A DNA stretch of 64,000 bases from Deltaproteobacteria bacterium HGW-Deltaproteobacteria-6 (GTDB lineage: Bacteria; Desulfobacterota; Syntrophia; Syntrophales; Smithellaceae). The notes beneath the pieces were generated by a model. That model was not told where the DNA came from and searched no databases. It saw only the letters and a list, made by a program, of their open reading frames with translations. Where the stretch lies: contig PHAT01000006.1 in NCBI GenBank assembly GCA_002840435.1, forward strand, positions 1 through 64,000, read 5' to 3'. Positions within the stretch are counted from its first letter, which is position 1. Every line of letters begins with the position of its first letter. Shown here piece by piece: positions 53,867 to 62,337 of this stretch. Position numbers and translations under genes: made by a program.

Positions 53867-54172
53867 ATGGGACTGGAAATAGTATTTAAAGATAAAAACC
53901 TCGATAGATTAGAAATTGATGCTGGTTTCAATGCCGGGCATCCACCTAATATTGTTAAGGCGTACAGAAGGCGGATGCAACAAATAAGGGCTGCGAAAGA
54001 TGAAAGAGATTTTTATAATATAAAATCCTTAGGATATGAAAAATTGAAAGGAAATAGAAAGCACCAACATTCTATGAAATTAAATGATCAATGGCGTTTG
54101 ATTTTAGAGTATGTGGAAAATGGAAACAGTAAAAGAATTTTAATAGTTAGTATTGAGGATTATCATCGTTAA
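53867..54172 (+). CDS. HigB-like RelE/ParE-family toxin
   Basis: 101 aa. MEIVF-like start, IVKAYRRRMQQIRAAKDERDFYNIKSLGYEKLKG, HSMKLNDQWRLILEY and ILIVSIEDYHR are typical of HigB toxins that cleave mRNA on ribosomes. It lies 11 bp before its HigA-type partner, toxin first as in hig loci. Cargo of the transposon. Confidence 0.85.
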   Translation: MGLEIVFKDKNLDRLEIDAGFNAGHPPNIVKAYRRRMQQIRAAKDERDFYNIKSLGYEKLKGNRKHQHSMKLNDQWRLILEYVENGNSKRILIVSIEDYHR

Positions 54173-54183
54173 GGAGAATTGCC

Positions 54184-55311
54184 ATGGCAGAAAGAAGAGC
54201 CGCTGAAGTTTTTCCGCCGGGAGAATTTATAAAGGAAGAATTAGAAACGCGCAATTGGAATCAGACTGAATTGGCTGAAATTATTGGACGCCTCCCCAGT
54301 GTGATTAATGAGTTGATTTCTGGGAAGAGAGCTATCAGCCCAGAAATAGCAAAAGCATTAGGTGAAGCGTTTGGAACTAGCGCAGATTATTGGTTAAATT
54401 TGGAAAGCATGTATCAGCTTTGGCATGTTGCGGATACTGGTAATGTTATTTCACGTAGAGCAAGACTTTATAAAATAGCACCAATCAAGGAAATGGTCAA
54501 AAGACATTGGATTGAACCATCTGAAAATATTGATGTTCTTGAAAATACAGTAAAAGGTTTTTTCAAAATAGATGATTTAGATAATCCAATTCAGTTGCCA
54601 TATGCCGCGCGTTGCAGCAGACAAGAAATACCGTCCGCTTCGCTCAACGCATGGTTAGTTAGGGCCAAGCAATTAGCCATTTGTGTAGATGCAAAACCAT
54701 TTTCTGTTAAGTCATTTAGTAATTGTTTAGCACAATTAAAGAAATTAATGCCTAGTTTACAAGAAGTAAGACATGTCCCTAGAATTTTAGCAGAAAATGG
54801 CATTCGTTTCTTAGTATTGGAACACTTGCCGCAGACCAGCGTTGATGGCGTCACTTTCTGGCTTGATAATAAAAGCCCTGTGATTGTTCTTTCCTTGAGA
54901 TCTGATAGGATTGATAATTTTTGGTACACATTGGCACATGAATTAGGACATGTAAAACGAAAGGATGGATTAACGGATGTAATTATAGACACCAACCTTG
55001 TCGGTAATGAATACTATCTTAATGACATACAATCAGAAGCAGAGCAGCAGGCGAATTTATTTGCAGCAGATTTTTTAATTAACCAATCAGATTTGAATAA
55101 TTTTATTGCAAGAGTTCGCCCTCTTTATGGAACTACTAAGATAATTGGATTTGCGCAAAGAATTGGTGTTCACCCTGCCATTGTTATTGGACAACTCCAA
55201 TTTAAGGGAGAAATACCCTGGTCATCGTTTCGGAAAATGTTAGATAAAATGAGACATGTTTTAATCCCATCGGCCTTAACTGATGGATGGGGGCAAACTG
55301 TTACACTATGA
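54184..55311 (+). CDS. HigA-like antitoxin fused to an ImmA/IrrE metallopeptidase domain
   Basis: 375 aa. N-terminal XRE/HigA helix-turn-helix (PPGEFIKEELETRNWNQTELAEIIG, SGKRAISPEIAKALGEAFGTS). From about residue 190 an ImmA/IrrE peptidase domain has WYTLAHELGHVKRK (HExxH) and EQQANLFAADFLI. Fused antitoxins of this kind occur with HigB toxins. The peptidase may control antitoxin stability. It is translated with higB (11-bp gap). Confidence 0.85.
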   Translation: MAERRAAEVFPPGEFIKEELETRNWNQTELAEIIGRLPSVINELISGKRAISPEIAKALGEAFGTSADYWLNLESMYQLWHVADTGNVISRRARLYKIAPIKEMVKRHWIEPSENIDVLENTVKGFFKIDDLDNPIQLPYAARCSRQEIPSASLNAWLVRAKQLAICVDAKPFSVKSFSNCLAQLKKLMPSLQEVRHVPRILAENGIRFLVLEHLPQTSVDGVTFWLDNKSPVIVLSLRSDRIDNFWYTLAHELGHVKRKDGLTDVIIDTNLVGNEYYLNDIQSEAEQQANLFAADFLINQSDLNNFIARVRPLYGTTKIIGFAQRIGVHPAIVIGQLQFKGEIPWSSFRKMLDKMRHVLIPSALTDGWGQTVTL

Positions 55312-56298: not shown

Positions 56299-56348
56299 TG
56301 TTTAGTGTTTAGTTATTGGTTGACACGCAAAATAGAATATGTTACAAA
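56299..56348 (+). promoter_or_regulatory. Promoter/operator of the HTH-ImmA pair
   Basis: TGTTTAGTGTTTAG (56299-56312, two TTTAG half-sites) lies just upstream of a TTGACA (56320-56325), 17 bp, TACAAA (56343-56348). The same 14 bp recur at 57427-57440 before the Ubl operon. Confidence 0.6.
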
Positions 56349-56368
56349 CACGAACAAGGAGAGAATTT

Positions 56369-56716
56369 ATGAGTGAAACACTTGGAGACCGTTTAAAACG
56401 TATGAGGTCTTCGCGGGGGCTCGGTTTACGTGAGACAGCCATCAAAGTTGGTATGTCAGCAACATACCTTTCGCGTGTGGAAAACAACCAAGAAACCAGT
56501 CCCCCAAGCGAAGAGAAAATTCGGAATCTTGCAGACGTGCTCAAAGGCAATTTTGATGAGTTGATGCAACTTGCGGGTCGAATATCCTTTGAGGTCACGG
56601 AACTAATCAAGGCCGATTCAAATATGCCAGCATTTCTCAGGCGATCCAGGGAAAAAAACTTAACCGCCGAGGAATTGATGAAACTACTTGAAAAACAGGA
56701 TACTGAGGATAAATGA
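56369..56716 (+). CDS. XRE-family HTH repressor (CapH-like position)
   Basis: 115 aa from the ATG at 56369 (GGAGAG upstream; 56339 lacks an SD). LGDRLKRMRSSRGLGLRETAIKVGMSATYLSRVEN is the helix-turn-helix. A helical C-terminal part, DEEL-free, ends MKLLEKQDTEDK. It overlaps the next gene by 4 bp. In CBASS loci a HTH protein (CapH) and a peptidase (CapP) form such a pair that controls the defence operon. Confidence 0.85.
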   Translation: MSETLGDRLKRMRSSRGLGLRETAIKVGMSATYLSRVENNQETSPPSEEKIRNLADVLKGNFDELMQLAGRISFEVTELIKADSNMPAFLRRSREKNLTAEELMKLLEKQDTEDK

Positions 56717-57405
56717 GCATAAAAGTTCCCTACAGAAAAATATCTGAGATAGAGACAATGTCACGCGAACTTTTGCATAAGTATGAGGTGTGGAAGAAAC
56801 ACCCATTGGCGCCTCCAATCAATGTAGATGAAATAGTGGAAGGCTACTTCCATATCTCCCTCGAATTCGGGGATTTAAAGCAACATCTTTCGATTCCAGA
56901 TGTCTTAGGGGCTACCTGGTTCGATGAGCAAGTGATACGAATAGACTCTTCACTAGAAACTAAAGAAGGTCGTTTATCTTTCACAATGGCCCACGAGATC
57001 GGACATTGGTGGATGCACCGCCCAATCTATGAAATGGGAAAAGTAACATTCCCACTATTTGCTTACGGACAGGCACCACCATCTGCTGCTGTTGTATGCC
57101 GTATTTCAGGGAAGAAAGAACCGGCAGAGTGGCAGGCGGATCAATTCGCGGCTATGCTTTTGATGCCCGCATCATTATTACGGGCGTCGATATCTTCTAT
57201 TAATGGTTACGAACAAATAAAAATTGAAGGACTTGCAAAACATCTCGGAAATCTTGCTGACAATCCGGACCTTCGTAAAGCAGCCAAGTGTATCATCGAA
57301 ACCAGTTTCAGTAATGTATCAATAGAGGCGATGTGTTATCGGCTCATCGATCTTAAGCTTGTTGTGGATTCGACCCCATCACAGACAGTTTTGTTGAATT
57401 GCTAA
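56713..57405 (+). CDS. ImmA/IrrE-family metallopeptidase (CapP-like)
   Basis: 230 aa. TMAHEIGHWWMH (HExxH zinc site) and EWQADQFAAMLLMP (third ligand region). A Cys in AAVVCRISGKKEP lies between them, reminiscent of the cysteine described for CapP as an inhibitory zinc ligand. It likely cleaves the HTH repressor encoded just upstream. No signal peptide. Confidence 0.82.
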   Translation: MSIKVPYRKISEIETMSRELLHKYEVWKKHPLAPPINVDEIVEGYFHISLEFGDLKQHLSIPDVLGATWFDEQVIRIDSSLETKEGRLSFTMAHEIGHWWMHRPIYEMGKVTFPLFAYGQAPPSAAVVCRISGKKEPAEWQADQFAAMLLMPASLLRASISSINGYEQIKIEGLAKHLGNLADNPDLRKAAKCIIETSFSNVSIEAMCYRLIDLKLVVDSTPSQTVLLNC

Positions 57406-57426
57406 GAAGTGTTTTTTTGTCAATGC

Positions 57427-57440
57427 TGTTTAGTGTTTAG
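57427..57440. promoter_or_regulatory. Second copy of the TGTTTAGTGTTTAG site
   Basis: Identical to 56299-56312, placed 30 bp before the first gene of the Ubl operon. Probably bound by the XRE protein. Confidence 0.55.
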
Positions 57441-57470
57441 GGAACAAATAATTAGAAAGGAGGTGATAAC

Positions 57471-57641
57471 ATGGCAAAAAACCCACCTGTAGGAGATGGG
57501 CACCGGCACGGCGCAGTTAAGGAACGAAGCCAAACCTACAATCCGAACATAGACCGTTGGACCAAGCGTGGACCAGATGGTAAGTTCATGGATCAGAAGG
57601 TTGACGGCGATCCTTTTAAGGGTGTGCGTAAAGAAAAGTGA
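57471..57641 (+). CDS. Small conserved basic protein at the head of the Ubl operon
   Basis: 56 aa with a strong SD (AAAGGAGGTGATAAC). Starts MAKNPPVGDGHRHGAVKERS and ends DGDPFKGVRKEK, with WTKRGPDGKFMD in between. Small proteins of this pattern are common and unnamed and may be DNA- or RNA-associated. Too short for routine gene calling. Confidence 0.65.
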   Translation: MAKNPPVGDGHRHGAVKERSQTYNPNIDRWTKRGPDGKFMDQKVDGDPFKGVRKEK

Positions 57642-57723
57642 AAAAGAAAATGGAGGTATGTCTTCAAAAACATGCCTCCGATTTTTTACCCTAAACAACA
57701 AATTAGAAAAAGGAGAACAACTT

Positions 57724-57993
57724 ATGACTAGCAACCATTCAGAACAGTCCCCCGGCCATAATAAAACTACGATGATTATTATTAACGGTCGGCAGCGTGA
57801 AGTTACCGGAAAAGAAATCACGTATTCCCAGGTTGTTCAAATGGCTTTTCCTGATGACCAGAATAGCGAGACGATAGAATATACTGTAGCCTATGCCAAT
57901 CCACACGGACAAGATGGTACACTGGTTAACGGACAAACAGTTCATATCAAAGAAGGGATGGTATTCAATGTCACCAAAACCAATCGTTCTTGA
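57724..57993 (+). CDS. Ubiquitin-like (multiubiquitin-domain) protein
   Basis: 89 aa from the ATG at 57724 (AAGGAG upstream). A single beta-grasp unit: MIIINGRQREVTGKEITYSQVV, ETIEYTVAYAN and LVNGQTVHIKEGMVFNVTKT. It matches the bacterial multiubiquitin domain, which can occur singly. The C terminus ends TNRS without a Gly-Gly, so any conjugation would need trimming or another chemistry. It overlaps the E1 gene by 26 bp. Confidence 0.75.
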   Translation: MTSNHSEQSPGHNKTTMIIINGRQREVTGKEITYSQVVQMAFPDDQNSETIEYTVAYANPHGQDGTLVNGQTVHIKEGMVFNVTKTNRS

Positions 57994-59176
57994 TCCGGAT
58001 CTTGAACGCCTCCAAAAGGAGGGTTATGAAATTGAAGTTCGGGATGGACATTTATTGGTTCATTCCGTTCCATATGTGAATGCTCAACGCAACGTCCTGC
58101 AAGGAATTATAGTAACCAATCTTAACGGAAATATAGGTAAACTGGGACCGCCTAGCGATCATCAGGTTTGGTTCGCTGGCGAATACCCATGCCATCACAC
58201 AGGAGCTCCCATTGATGGTATTCGCTGTTCCTCGGGCTCGTTTAAGTTCTGGGATGGGTTCGAGGCACAGCACCATTTTTCATGTAAACCTGAAGGGGGC
58301 AGCAATTATCCAGATTATTACTCAAAAGTTAAGAGCTACATATCCATTATTTCGAATGAAGCCAAAGTAATTGATCCGAGTACTACTCCTCTCACATTTA
58401 AAATCATCGTATCGGCTGAACAAGATACCATCTTTCGTTATTGGGATTCAGCATCAAGCAGAGCCAACATTGTTGCTGTCTCTGAAAAACTCCTCATGAA
58501 CAAGGTAGCTATAATTGGCCTTGGAGGCACCGGTTCCTATGTCCTTGATCTTGCCGCAAAGACACCAATTCGAGAAATCCATTTATTTGATGGCGATATC
58601 TTTCATCAGCACAATGCATTCAGGTCACCCGGTGCCCCTTCTATAACCACTCTTCAGGCGAAGCCCGCCAAAGTAGATTACTTTGCAAGCGTCTACAATG
58701 AAATGCGAACCGGCATCGTTCCGCATTGTTGCTATCTTACTGAAGACAATATTGTCGAGCTTACCGGATTCGATTTTGTTTTTATGTGTGTGGATAAAGG
58801 CGCAGTAAGAAGACTGCTGAGTGACTTTTTGCACAACCAAAATATTCCGTTTATTGATGTCGGCATGGAACTCATTATGATACAAGAAGACAATTGTATT
58901 TTGGGTACATGCCGCGCCACCTTGAGCACTCCAGAGAGAAATGATCATTTTGAAAGACGTGCACCGATGGGTAACGAAAGCGGTAATGATCTTTACAAAA
59001 GCAATATTCAGGTTGCAGACATGAATGCCTTGAATGCAACACTTGCTGTTATAAAGTGGAAACAGTATTATGGCTTTTATCAGGACGTTTACAAATTTCA
59101 CCATACAACCTACTCTGTAAATGCACATTCCCTGACACGGGACGAGATAACAGGAATGAGTGATACAACCCCATGA
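57968..59176 (+). CDS. ThiF/E1-like enzyme with N-terminal E2-like (DUF6791-type) domain
   Basis: 402 aa from the ATG at 57968. N-terminal 140 residues: HSVPYVNAQRNVLQGII, WFAGEYPCHHTGAPIDGI and AQHHFSCKPEG, as in DUF6791 domains next to ThiF. From about 170 an adenylating fold: KVAIIGLGGTGSYVLDLAA, EIHLFDGDIFHQHNAFR and FVFMCVDKGAVRRLL. It would activate the ubiquitin-like protein. Bacterial Ubl-E1 systems are linked to phage defence. Confidence 0.8.
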   Translation: MSPKPIVLDPDLERLQKEGYEIEVRDGHLLVHSVPYVNAQRNVLQGIIVTNLNGNIGKLGPPSDHQVWFAGEYPCHHTGAPIDGIRCSSGSFKFWDGFEAQHHFSCKPEGGSNYPDYYSKVKSYISIISNEAKVIDPSTTPLTFKIIVSAEQDTIFRYWDSASSRANIVAVSEKLLMNKVAIIGLGGTGSYVLDLAAKTPIREIHLFDGDIFHQHNAFRSPGAPSITTLQAKPAKVDYFASVYNEMRTGIVPHCCYLTEDNIVELTGFDFVFMCVDKGAVRRLLSDFLHNQNIPFIDVGMELIMIQEDNCILGTCRATLSTPERNDHFERRAPMGNESGNDLYKSNIQVADMNALNATLAVIKWKQYYGFYQDVYKFHHTTYSVNAHSLTRDEITGMSDTTP

Positions 59177-59601
59177 AACGATCATCAATTACTCCAGTAT
59201 TTGTGGATATTATTCCAGACCGGCTGGAAGAAGGATATTTATATATTTGTGAGCGCTATAAGACGGTTGCCCATAAATGCTGCTGCGGATGCGGAGAAGA
59301 GGTTATAACACCGCTATCTCCTGCAGACTGGACTATACGCGTGCTGGGAAAAACAGTTTCACTTATTCCCTCCATAGGTAACTGGAGTTTTGCGTGTAAG
59401 TCTCATTACTGGATTTCCAACAACAAGGTTTTATGGGCGAGTAAGTTATCCGCACGGCAGATTGACCAAGTCAAAGCACGAGACAAGGCGGATAAGAAAG
59501 CCTATATTGTGGCCATCAACAAACAAAAAGAAAGACAGGTGAAGCCAATTTCGTTTGTGGCAAGGGTCTGGCAAGCTTTCAAGCATTGGTGGAAATCATA
59601 A
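59173..59601 (+). CDS. DUF6527-family protein of the Ubl operon
   Basis: 142 aa. CCCGCGEEVITPLSPADWTI forms a zinc-knuckle-like cluster, then GNWSFACKSHYWISNNKVLWA. This layout is DUF6527, often found beside ThiF/Ubl genes. Overlaps the E1 stop by 4 bp (ATGA). Role unknown; substrate recognition or deconjugation can only be guessed. The next 126 bp up to the coming gene hold no feature. Confidence 0.75.
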   Translation: MKRSSITPVFVDIIPDRLEEGYLYICERYKTVAHKCCCGCGEEVITPLSPADWTIRVLGKTVSLIPSIGNWSFACKSHYWISNNKVLWASKLSARQIDQVKARDKADKKAYIVAINKQKERQVKPISFVARVWQAFKHWWKS

Positions 59602-59760
59602 AAAATGAACTTTTTCCAAGAAACATCCTTATCTAGCTATTTACACTGAGGTTGAATGTTGCGAGATTAATACTGACAACCACCGGAAATATAAGTTCTC
59701 CATCAATTTATTTGATGGGAGGTTTTTGTGCTCATGCCAAAAACACAAAAGGAGATAAGC

Positions 59761-62337
59761 ATGAAAAAGACTTTTATGATCGTCATCCTATTGGTTATTT
59801 CCATATTATCAATTTATTCCGCACAGCCTGATCTAATCTATGCCCATGGCAAGGCATCATCCACTGAAGAAGGCATATATCCCACTGGACCGACATGCTC
59901 AAAATTATCCACTGCCAAGTGGGAGGATATCAGTCTTTATGATCTGACCTACGGTTGTATGCCGGCTGGATGGGATACCTTTTTTAAGACAGATGACGTA
60001 CGCGAGCAGATAAGCAATATCTCCGACGCAATAACGCATCAGGTCAAACAAGGGTATAGGATAGGCCCTGCGATCGGGAACACCTTCAGGGCGTTGTACC
60101 TTGTTAAGCCAGATGAAGTAAAAGCCGTTATCATGGGACAAGACCCGGCTCCTCAACCAGGTCTGGCCACAGGCCTGGCATTTTCGACAGAACCCAATGT
60201 ACCTTCATCAAAAGTAGCTTCAATACAGCGCGTCCTTCTCGAAGCGCAAAACGAAGGTTTCTGCATAAATCTCAACAACGGAGATTTGAAAAAATGGACG
60301 GATGACGGTTTATTGCTGCTGAATATGGCTCTTTCTATCCCCTGCCCTCCGGATGAACAGAGTTGCACGATCGGCGGGCATATAGCTTTATGGGGCGTCT
60401 TTACGGATCATCTGGTTAATTACATCGACAACAATGCAGGCGCCGCCGCATTCATCTTATGGGGCAGCAAATCCGGCGAGTACGGGAAAAATGTTAAAAA
60501 CAAAGCTCATAAAGTCCTCAAGGGTGGTCATCCGTCCCCGAGGGTTTCAGGAGCAAATTTCTTTTGTAAGAATTATTTCAACTGCACGAACAAATGGCTG
60601 ACGGCAAACGGCCGTAAACCGATCGACTGGAAATTAAAAGATACCTGCAGCAAATCAAAACCCTGTATCTGGGCCTGGCATAGCGGAACAGGAACATCAA
60701 CATGCAGTAAAGAATGCTCCCTTAAGGATTGTGACGTAGCAAAAGTTCCAGAGATGGCAATACCTTTAACAGCCACGAGAGGCGGTAATGATCCGGAGGT
60801 TGTCCAATGCAAAAAACTGGAACCACCTAAACAGGGGGTATGTTCAGTCACACAAGGAAATGACTCTATCCTGATCAGTGGGAATATTCTGGCGCCGTCG
60901 AAAGTATATGCCGGCGGCGATGTCCTTATCAAAGACGGAATGATCGCCTGTGTCGGATGCGACTGTAGCAGCGGTTTAGCGGAAAAACCGACAAAGATCT
61001 CGTGTGCAAACGGTGTCGTATCTCCCGGCCTGATCAATGCCCACGACCACATCACATACAACCAGAACTTCCCGGCGGACTGGGGCAGCATACGCTATGA
61101 CCACCGCAATGTCTGGCGGAAGGGCGGTGATTCCGGTCATCCAATAATACCGTCCAACAAGGGTCGGGATAATCAGTTCCCATGGTCCGAATTACGACAG
61201 GTGCTGTCAGGCACCACATCCGTTGCAGGATCGGGAGGGGCAAAGGGATTACTGCGTAACCTAGACAAGGATGAACTCCTTGAGGGCCTCAAAGCGAAGA
61301 AGGTGTTTTACAGCACATTTCCATTGGGGGACGTTGACGGCGTCATGCACACCAATGACTGCAACTATCCCAAAATTGACAGTCCTTCTGTTGTCCTTGC
61401 TGACCAGTGTTACTTGCCGCATGTGGCCGAAGGTGTCAACCAGGCTGCAAACAACGAGATACGTTGCATGAACGAAAGCAAACTTATAACGTCCGAAAGC
61501 GCATTCATACATGCAGTCGGAGCTTCAGGCAAAGATGCCTATCTTTTAAAAGAAAAAGGAACTTCCATAATCTGGTCGCCCCGATCGAACATATCTCTAT
61601 ACGGGAATACTGCCCTGGTAACCATGTACAAAACCCTGGGATTAAATATTGCACTCAGTACGGACTGGACTCCTTCAGGCTCCATCAATCTCTTAAGAGA
61701 ACTCAAATGCGCAGACTCCTTCAACTCCGATTATTTGGCGAAAACGTTTTCCGATAAGGACCTGTGGAATATGGTCACTGCCAATCCGGCAGATGCCCTT
61801 AAGTTGTCCGATAAAATCGGGAGATTGCAGAAAGACATGGTGGCGGATATTGCCATTTACGACGGATCATCGCGATCCAATGTCTATCGAGCAATTATTG
61901 ATGCCGACGTTGAACACGTGGCACTTGCTCTTAGAGGAGAAATGCCACTATATGGCGATACCAATATAATGCAGTCTATTCCGAATGGTCAGCAAGGATG
62001 TGAGCCTTTCCCCAGCGGAATAAAAGGGCGGCAAAAGACGGTCTGTATTGAGAGAGAAATCGGGATAGACTTTAATGCCCTTCAAAACAACAATAAGGAC
62101 TCATACCCGTTGTTTTTCTCCGGCGTTCCGACAGGTGAACCGACGTGCGTTCCCTCCAGACCGAACGAATACACAGGCAAAAAAACGCCCGCCGACTGGG
62201 ACGGTGACGGAATTCCAAACGAAAAGGACAACTGTCCGTATATTTTTAATCCAATCCGGCCAATGGACAACGGTGCACAGGCGGACTGCAACAAAGACGG
62301 TATTGGCGATGCTTGTGATCCAAAGCCGTGCAGTTGA
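59761..62337 (+). CDS. Exported fusion: uracil-DNA-glycosylase-like domain + amidohydrolase + TSP3-like repeats
   Basis: 858 aa from the ATG at 59761 (AAAAGGAG upstream). Signal peptide (residues 1-21 or so). Residues about 60-290 are family-1 UDG-like: GQDPAPQPGLATGLAFS (Asp128, with Ala130 replacing the usual Tyr of GQDPYH), LLLLNMALSI (Asn188), GGHPSPRVSG (His257) and a PIDW end. Residues about 360-750 are an amidohydrolase: NAHDHITYN (H428, H430), LPHVAEG (H554, E557), FIHAVG (H584) and LSTDWTPSG (D635), the full ATZ/TRZ-type metal set. The last 50 residues have DWDGDGIPNEKDNCP and CNKDGIGDACD, calcium-binding TSP3-like. Why a base-excision enzyme would be exported is unclear. Confidence 0.82.
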   Translation: MKKTFMIVILLVISILSIYSAQPDLIYAHGKASSTEEGIYPTGPTCSKLSTAKWEDISLYDLTYGCMPAGWDTFFKTDDVREQISNISDAITHQVKQGYRIGPAIGNTFRALYLVKPDEVKAVIMGQDPAPQPGLATGLAFSTEPNVPSSKVASIQRVLLEAQNEGFCINLNNGDLKKWTDDGLLLLNMALSIPCPPDEQSCTIGGHIALWGVFTDHLVNYIDNNAGAAAFILWGSKSGEYGKNVKNKAHKVLKGGHPSPRVSGANFFCKNYFNCTNKWLTANGRKPIDWKLKDTCSKSKPCIWAWHSGTGTSTCSKECSLKDCDVAKVPEMAIPLTATRGGNDPEVVQCKKLEPPKQGVCSVTQGNDSILISGNILAPSKVYAGGDVLIKDGMIACVGCDCSSGLAEKPTKISCANGVVSPGLINAHDHITYNQNFPADWGSIRYDHRNVWRKGGDSGHPIIPSNKGRDNQFPWSELRQVLSGTTSVAGSGGAKGLLRNLDKDELLEGLKAKKVFYSTFPLGDVDGVMHTNDCNYPKIDSPSVVLADQCYLPHVAEGVNQAANNEIRCMNESKLITSESAFIHAVGASGKDAYLLKEKGTSIIWSPRSNISLYGNTALVTMYKTLGLNIALSTDWTPSGSINLLRELKCADSFNSDYLAKTFSDKDLWNMVTANPADALKLSDKIGRLQKDMVADIAIYDGSSRSNVYRAIIDADVEHVALALRGEMPLYGDTNIMQSIPNGQQGCEPFPSGIKGRQKTVCIEREIGIDFNALQNNNKDSYPLFFSGVPTGEPTCVPSRPNEYTGKKTPADWDGDGIPNEKDNCPYIFNPIRPMDNGAQADCNKDGIGDACDPKPCS

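Follow-up and report, generated by a model that had tools for sequence, protein, structure and literature searches.

A putative CapH/CapP-type repressor–protease switch ahead of a DUF6791-class ubiquitin-like operon in a Smithellaceae bacterium

In cyclic oligonucleotide-based anti-phage signalling systems (CBASS), the helix-turn-helix (HTH) repressor CapH and the M78 peptidase CapP, which carries a cysteine in its zinc loop, stand beside an immune-type operon. A similar pair is formed by PprI (IrrE) and DdrO of Deinococcus, where cleavage of the HTH repressor by the M78 protease has been shown; activation of PprI by single-stranded DNA (ssDNA) depends on its GAF-like domain, and loss of the C-terminal domain abolishes both ssDNA binding and ssDNA-stimulated cleavage (PMC10904395). 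Controllers of this kind have also been found at the bacterial ubiquitin-like operons of the Bub class: CapW or CapH with CapP is associated with 219 of 544 Bub operons, and CapK with CapS, a kinase–repressor and not a protease–repressor pair, is an additional one, while protection against phage by Bub operons was not demonstrated (PMC13373217, 2026).

Here we describe a locus at positions 56369-59601 of a 64,000-nucleotide stretch of Deltaproteobacteria bacterium HGW-Deltaproteobacteria-6 (contig PHAT01000006.1; hereafter the window), in which a CapH-like HTH protein and a short CapP-like peptidase precede an operon for a ubiquitin-like protein (Ubl) and an E1-like enzyme. According to our in silico analysis, the pair probably acts as an autoregulated repressor–protease switch of the CapH/CapP type that controls this Ubl-conjugation operon. 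Protease–repressor control of Ubl operons is not new, as it has already been published for Bub, the sister class. What differs here, as read from the protein sequence, is a protease that keeps the conserved cysteine without the sensor half of CapP. The locus also differs from CapH/CapP of CBASS in having two operators, one per transcription unit, and a Ubl operon as effector; compared with PprI, repressor cleavage is predicted and the peptidase has no GAF-like domain.

Two candidate operators and a CapH/CapP-like pair

The first-pass annotation of this DNA had placed an HTH protein and an ImmA-type peptidase in front of genes for a small protein, a Ubl, an E1 and a DUF6527 protein. All these parts were recovered, on the + strand and in this order: HTH protein, ImmA/M78 peptidase, 56-residue PDC-S38 protein, multi-ubiquitin Ubl, DUF6791-ThiF E1 and DUF6527 protein (Table 1). 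The start of the peptidase gene overlaps the end of the HTH gene by 4 bp, and the HTH start codon is preceded by the ribosome-binding site AAGGAG, with an in-frame ATG further upstream at 56339. The likeness to CapH and CapP was borne out as well. The best PADLOC profiles for the two proteins are capH (protein residues 1-112 on model positions 3-97 of 103) and capP, and their best matches among solved structures are the HTH domain of CapH (7t5u, E 5.3e-7) and CapP (7t5t, E 0.0026).

The 14-mer TGTTTAGTGTTTAG occurs in exactly two exact copies in the 4.09-Mb genome, one before each transcription unit. We infer from their sequence and position that these copies, O1 and O2, are the sites of the repressor. 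The probable promoter of the repressor gene went unreported in our consensus promoter scan, since the scan requires a T as the sixth base of the -10 element; at O2, the same scan found no strong promoter.

The arrangement is conserved in another genome (G359), at a locus (L115) whose peptidase is 66% identical to that of the window and whose HTH protein is a close relative. There, TGTTTAGTGTTTAG lies 5' of the HTH gene and TGTTTAATGTTTAG 5' of the PDC-S38 gene, and these two sites are the sole exact matches to TGTTTARTGTTTAG in the genome. The promoter counterpart, TTGACA-N17-TATAAA, follows immediately behind the operator. Paired similar sites in both promoters were also observed at other co-directional loci, when fixed short windows were compared by an ungapped score against 400 shuffles: L140 (2/400 shuffles), L117 (4/400), L045 (8/400), L046 (12/400) and L053 (16/400). 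This score was used as well because the longest word shared by the two promoters was significant in so few loci, namely the window and, weakly, L053; it was not significant in L115, L002, L045, L046 and L062.

We propose that the CapH-like protein would bind O1 and O2, and so repress two units at once, the two-gene unit to which it belongs and PDC-S38-Ubl-E1-DUF6527. The M78 peptidase would be held inactive by default, possibly through a cysteine switch in which C129 acts on the zinc. Upon a stress or infection signal, it would cleave the HTH repressor, both units would be derepressed, likely through this proteolysis, and the E1 would activate the Ubl C-terminus for conjugation.

Table 1. Features of the locus, in window coordinates
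Feature	Coordinates	Strand	Evidence
Operator O1 (candidate), TGTTTAGTGTTTAG	56299..56312	+	5' of repressor gene, shortly before the -35 element
Probable repressor-gene promoter, TTGACA-N17-TACAAA	56320..56348	+	sequence
CapH-like HTH repressor, 115 aa	56369..56716	+	Pfam HTH_31 E 8.5e-13; PADLOC capH E 5.8e-12
Short CapP-like ImmA/M78 metallopeptidase, 230 aa	56713..57405	+	Peptidase_M78 E 3.8e-10; PADLOC capP E 1.2e-19
Operator O2 (candidate), TGTTTAGTGTTTAG	57427..57440	+	3' of peptidase gene, 5' of PDC-S38 gene
PDC-S38 small protein, 56 aa	57471..57641	+	PADLOC PDC-S38 E 3.7e-29, residues 1-56 of 56
Terminator-like hairpin with T run, 3' of PDC-S38 gene, 5' of Ubl gene	57651..57680	+	sequence
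Ubiquitin-like protein, 89 aa, one Multi_ubiq domain, ends ...TNRS	57724..57993	+	Pfam Multi_ubiq E 4.2e-20
E1-like adenylyltransferase, 402 aa	57968..59176	+	Pfam DUF6791 (10-161) E 3.7e-51; ThiF (about 165-396) E 1.6e-14
DUF6527 protein, 142 aa	59173..59601	+	Pfam DUF6527 E 2.3e-23

The short peptidase and its candidate cysteine switch

The zinc-site residues of the peptidase are HEIGH at 94-98 (HExxH) and E139. C129 lies in the loop that leads from HExxH to the third zinc ligand, the right place for the candidate cysteine switch that had been suspected at first pass. It is invariant among the four aligned co-directional short peptidases, and the readable close relatives have it within a VC motif that precedes the E..QAD ligand region (L124 is masked there). 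In a wider set, a Cys is present in that loop in most separate ImmA proteins of 226-312 residues; it is absent from shorter ImmA proteins, from most fused ones and from a HigA-ImmA protein encoded elsewhere in the window.

Of the 242 positions of the capP model, the window peptidase covers 12-128, compared to 16-241 and 10-241 for the full-length CapP proteins that stand at the sister Ubl loci L003 and L017. In alignments, it terminates where longer relatives extend about 100 residues further. The C-terminal sensor half of CapP was thus not matched in the window peptidase, by model coverage or by alignment, and it is mainly because this half is missing that we do not call the pair CapH/CapP outright.

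The switch proposed above also has a narrower version, a strict CapH/CapP system, and the confidence placed in the two overlaps. In it, the peptidase would bind ssDNA that arises from DNA damage or phage infection and would be triggered to cleave, making the Ubl operon inducible by DNA damage. We regard this version as possible but doubtful. The family match by profile and by solved structure, the conservation of C129 and the full-length CapP proteins at L003 and L017 are in line with such a system, but the peptidase stops about midway through the capP model, and the domain missing here is required in PprI for ssDNA binding and activation (PMC10904395). By analogy, the C-terminal domain of CapP may play the same part as in PprI. 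The idea put forward at first pass, that the logic of CapH/CapP operates at a Ubl operon, is partly supported: the operator shared by both units speaks for it, while a transfer of the DNA-damage trigger to a peptidase of this kind is not supported. Since the sensor half is lacking, we suggest that the proposed switch may not respond to ssDNA as CapP and PprI do, and that either the peptidase/HTH core or a partner may sense the signal instead.

Association with ubiquitin-like operons across genomes

E1 relatives were collected with an alignment query, from which the best 80 of 540 were retained, a sample that leans to close relatives. A related-locus search with the single E1 sequence found nothing, and a search in phages gave no match. 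Among 90 DUF6791-E1 loci, an ImmA-type gene lies at most 3.6 kb upstream in 50 and a WYL gene in 10. After de-duplication of the Ubl loci, an ImmA gene was found at most 3 kb upstream in 31/66 versus at most 3 kb downstream in 1/63. The association of ImmA with Ubl operons is not due to chance, and the co-occurrence expected by the first-pass annotation was upheld. Among the arrangements seen are separate HTH and ImmA pairs, HTH-ImmA fusions, and ImmA with a protein of about 145 residues and a sigma-like protein. A Multi_ubiq gene is present in 4 of 395 genomes of the phylum, and with an identity of at least 50% over the full length as threshold, the 395 yield three peptidases, which lie in 3 of these 4 genomes. 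DUF6791 is absent from the same-genus and same-family genomes of the sample; the operon is therefore accessory.

These counts also bear on the nature of the pair. HTH-ImmA pairs have been described as toxin–antitoxin pairs (PMC10538038), and a separate module of this sort, in which a HigA-ImmA fusion (PADLOC PD-Lambda-2_B, E 6e-44) follows a HigB-like toxin, lies about 1 kb upstream at 53867-55308. It is nevertheless improbable that the window pair is an HTH antitoxin with an ImmA-like partner, either a chance neighbour or an addiction module, and does not regulate the Ubl operon: the Ubl unit has a second operator copy in front of it, which another genome retains, ImmA genes often lie upstream of Ubl loci and hardly ever downstream, and the intact HExxH with a conserved Cys favours a controlled protease. 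Less probable still is that the HTH protein represses its own gene only and that a separate promoter beyond the hairpin at 57651-57680 drives the Ubl operon constitutively, for even if this terminator-like hairpin precedes the Ubl gene and no strong consensus promoter was found at O2, O2 precedes the PDC-S38 gene, is identical to O1 and is kept in L115, where no counterpart of the hairpin was seen by eye.

Several points weigh against an autoregulated switch that controls the Ubl operon. Repressor binding, cleavage and expression are predicted from sequence. With a peptidase devoid of the CapP sensor half, the CapP/PprI trigger need not apply, and the hairpin could decouple the PDC-S38 gene from the Ubl genes. 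The paired-site test was not significant in L002 (88/400), L118, L121 and L062, partly owing to the fixed short window; in L118 the site lies, by eye, farther from the peptidase stop than the test reached. Finally, the pair is not specific to Ubl operons, because elsewhere in the phylum its relatives stand ahead of genes for AAA ATPases (L121: AAA, E 3.7e-24).

Other putative controllers were observed next to Ubl genes. A divergent gene for a long CapP-like ImmA protein lies upstream of the Ubl gene at L012, L014, L017, L019, L020, L021 and L054, and likewise at L060, L064, L067, L072, L081 and L083; no CapH was found at these loci. Where the surroundings were read (L012, L017, L019, L054 and L072), the ImmA gene is accompanied by two others, one for a protein of about 145 residues and one for a sigma-70-like protein some 200 residues long (Sigma70_r2, E 5e-4 in L017), possibly a sigma factor under the control of the protease. 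A similar ImmA trio stands ahead of a Bub operon at L136. At L018 (3806-5474), two genes like CapK and CapS in size and order, for which Pfam gives only weak winged-helix matches, precede PDC-S38 and Ubl genes, and CapK with CapS is likewise an alternative controller before the same kind of Ubl operon (PMC13373217).

Relation to Bub and exchange of control modules

The window operon is a DUF6791-E1 relative of Bub and not a canonical Bub operon. It shares with Bub operons under CapH and CapP or CapW (PMC13373217) a Multi_ubiq Ubl, an E1, a DUF6527 protein and ImmA/HTH control. Unlike in Bub, the Ubl ends in Ser and not in Gly, and the E1 has DUF6791 in place of the JAB domain of BubCD. According to Pfam, none of the window operon proteins matches Prok-E2_E (BubB), of which L115 has one, or JAB (BubC). 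A solved relative of the Ubl is 9cd2 (E 1.4e-10). The C-terminal Ser of the Ubl is found in 89/89 relatives of the DUF6791 class, with no Gly-Gly end, in contrast to the Ubl of L140, which ends in Gly.

By sequence, the E1 matches BubCD mainly over its ThiF half (E 7.7e-7). In the predicted model of the E1 (pLDDT, the predicted local distance difference test, 90), the ThiF half is nearest to Citrobacter BubCD (9ea4; Z 24.2, root-mean-square deviation 2.7, 224 aligned residues); the rows of this structure search were filled by the ThiF half, and none addressed the DUF6791 fold. Within DUF6791 (57968-58453), H65 is conserved in 74/74 and C75, 10 residues away, in 71/74. This spacing recalls the HPN...Cys of E2 enzymes; DUF6791 as a hidden E2 found no support in hhalign against the Prok-E2_E alignment (probability 1%). 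The DUF6527 protein has four invariant residues, C36, C40, C75 and H78, which suggests a metal site. Its predicted model (pLDDT 93) had no PDB match at E <= 0.001, the best Z being 5.3, on helices. Plasmid-record rows were excluded from the E1 and DUF6527 alignments used for modelling.

A PDC-S38 homologue is encoded directly 5' of the Ubl in L115 and in 7/90 relatives; our literature search on DUF6527 and PDC-S38 found no paper. Downstream of the operon, at 59728-62337, an 869-residue open reading frame with a signal-peptide-like start has, by eye, a uracil-DNA-glycosylase-like part and an amidohydrolase-like part.

Behind its cassette, L115 encodes PDC-S38, a Multi_ubiq-Prok-E2_E fusion, a JAB-ThiF protein and DUF6527. 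Since the JAB-ThiF protein has a full-length match to Citrobacter BubCD (E 6.8e-78), and the E2 part also has a match, to BubB, L115 is, judging by these matches, a true Bub operon. A Bub operon also stands behind the same kind of cassette in Rhizobium (L140), and the annotation of a Rhizobium phaseoli plasmid reads HTH, ImmA, DUF2188, multiubiquitin, E2, ThiF and DUF6527.

That the same cassette fronts two Ubl classes, and its relatives AAA ATPases, suggests that control modules are exchanged independently of their effectors. More tentatively, a CapP-like subfamily without the sensor, with dual operators and the conserved Cys, might be a portable cassette that is swapped among effectors (the two Ubl operon classes and AAA ATPases) and answers a signal other than ssDNA, for example metal or redox state via the Cys, or a partner protein. 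Such a switch is of value since little is settled about what bacterial Ubl operons do and what triggers them: the two near-unique operators would offer, via O2, a direct handle on when the Ubl operon is wanted, and a CapP relative without the sensor half is a test of whether DNA damage is truly the common trigger.

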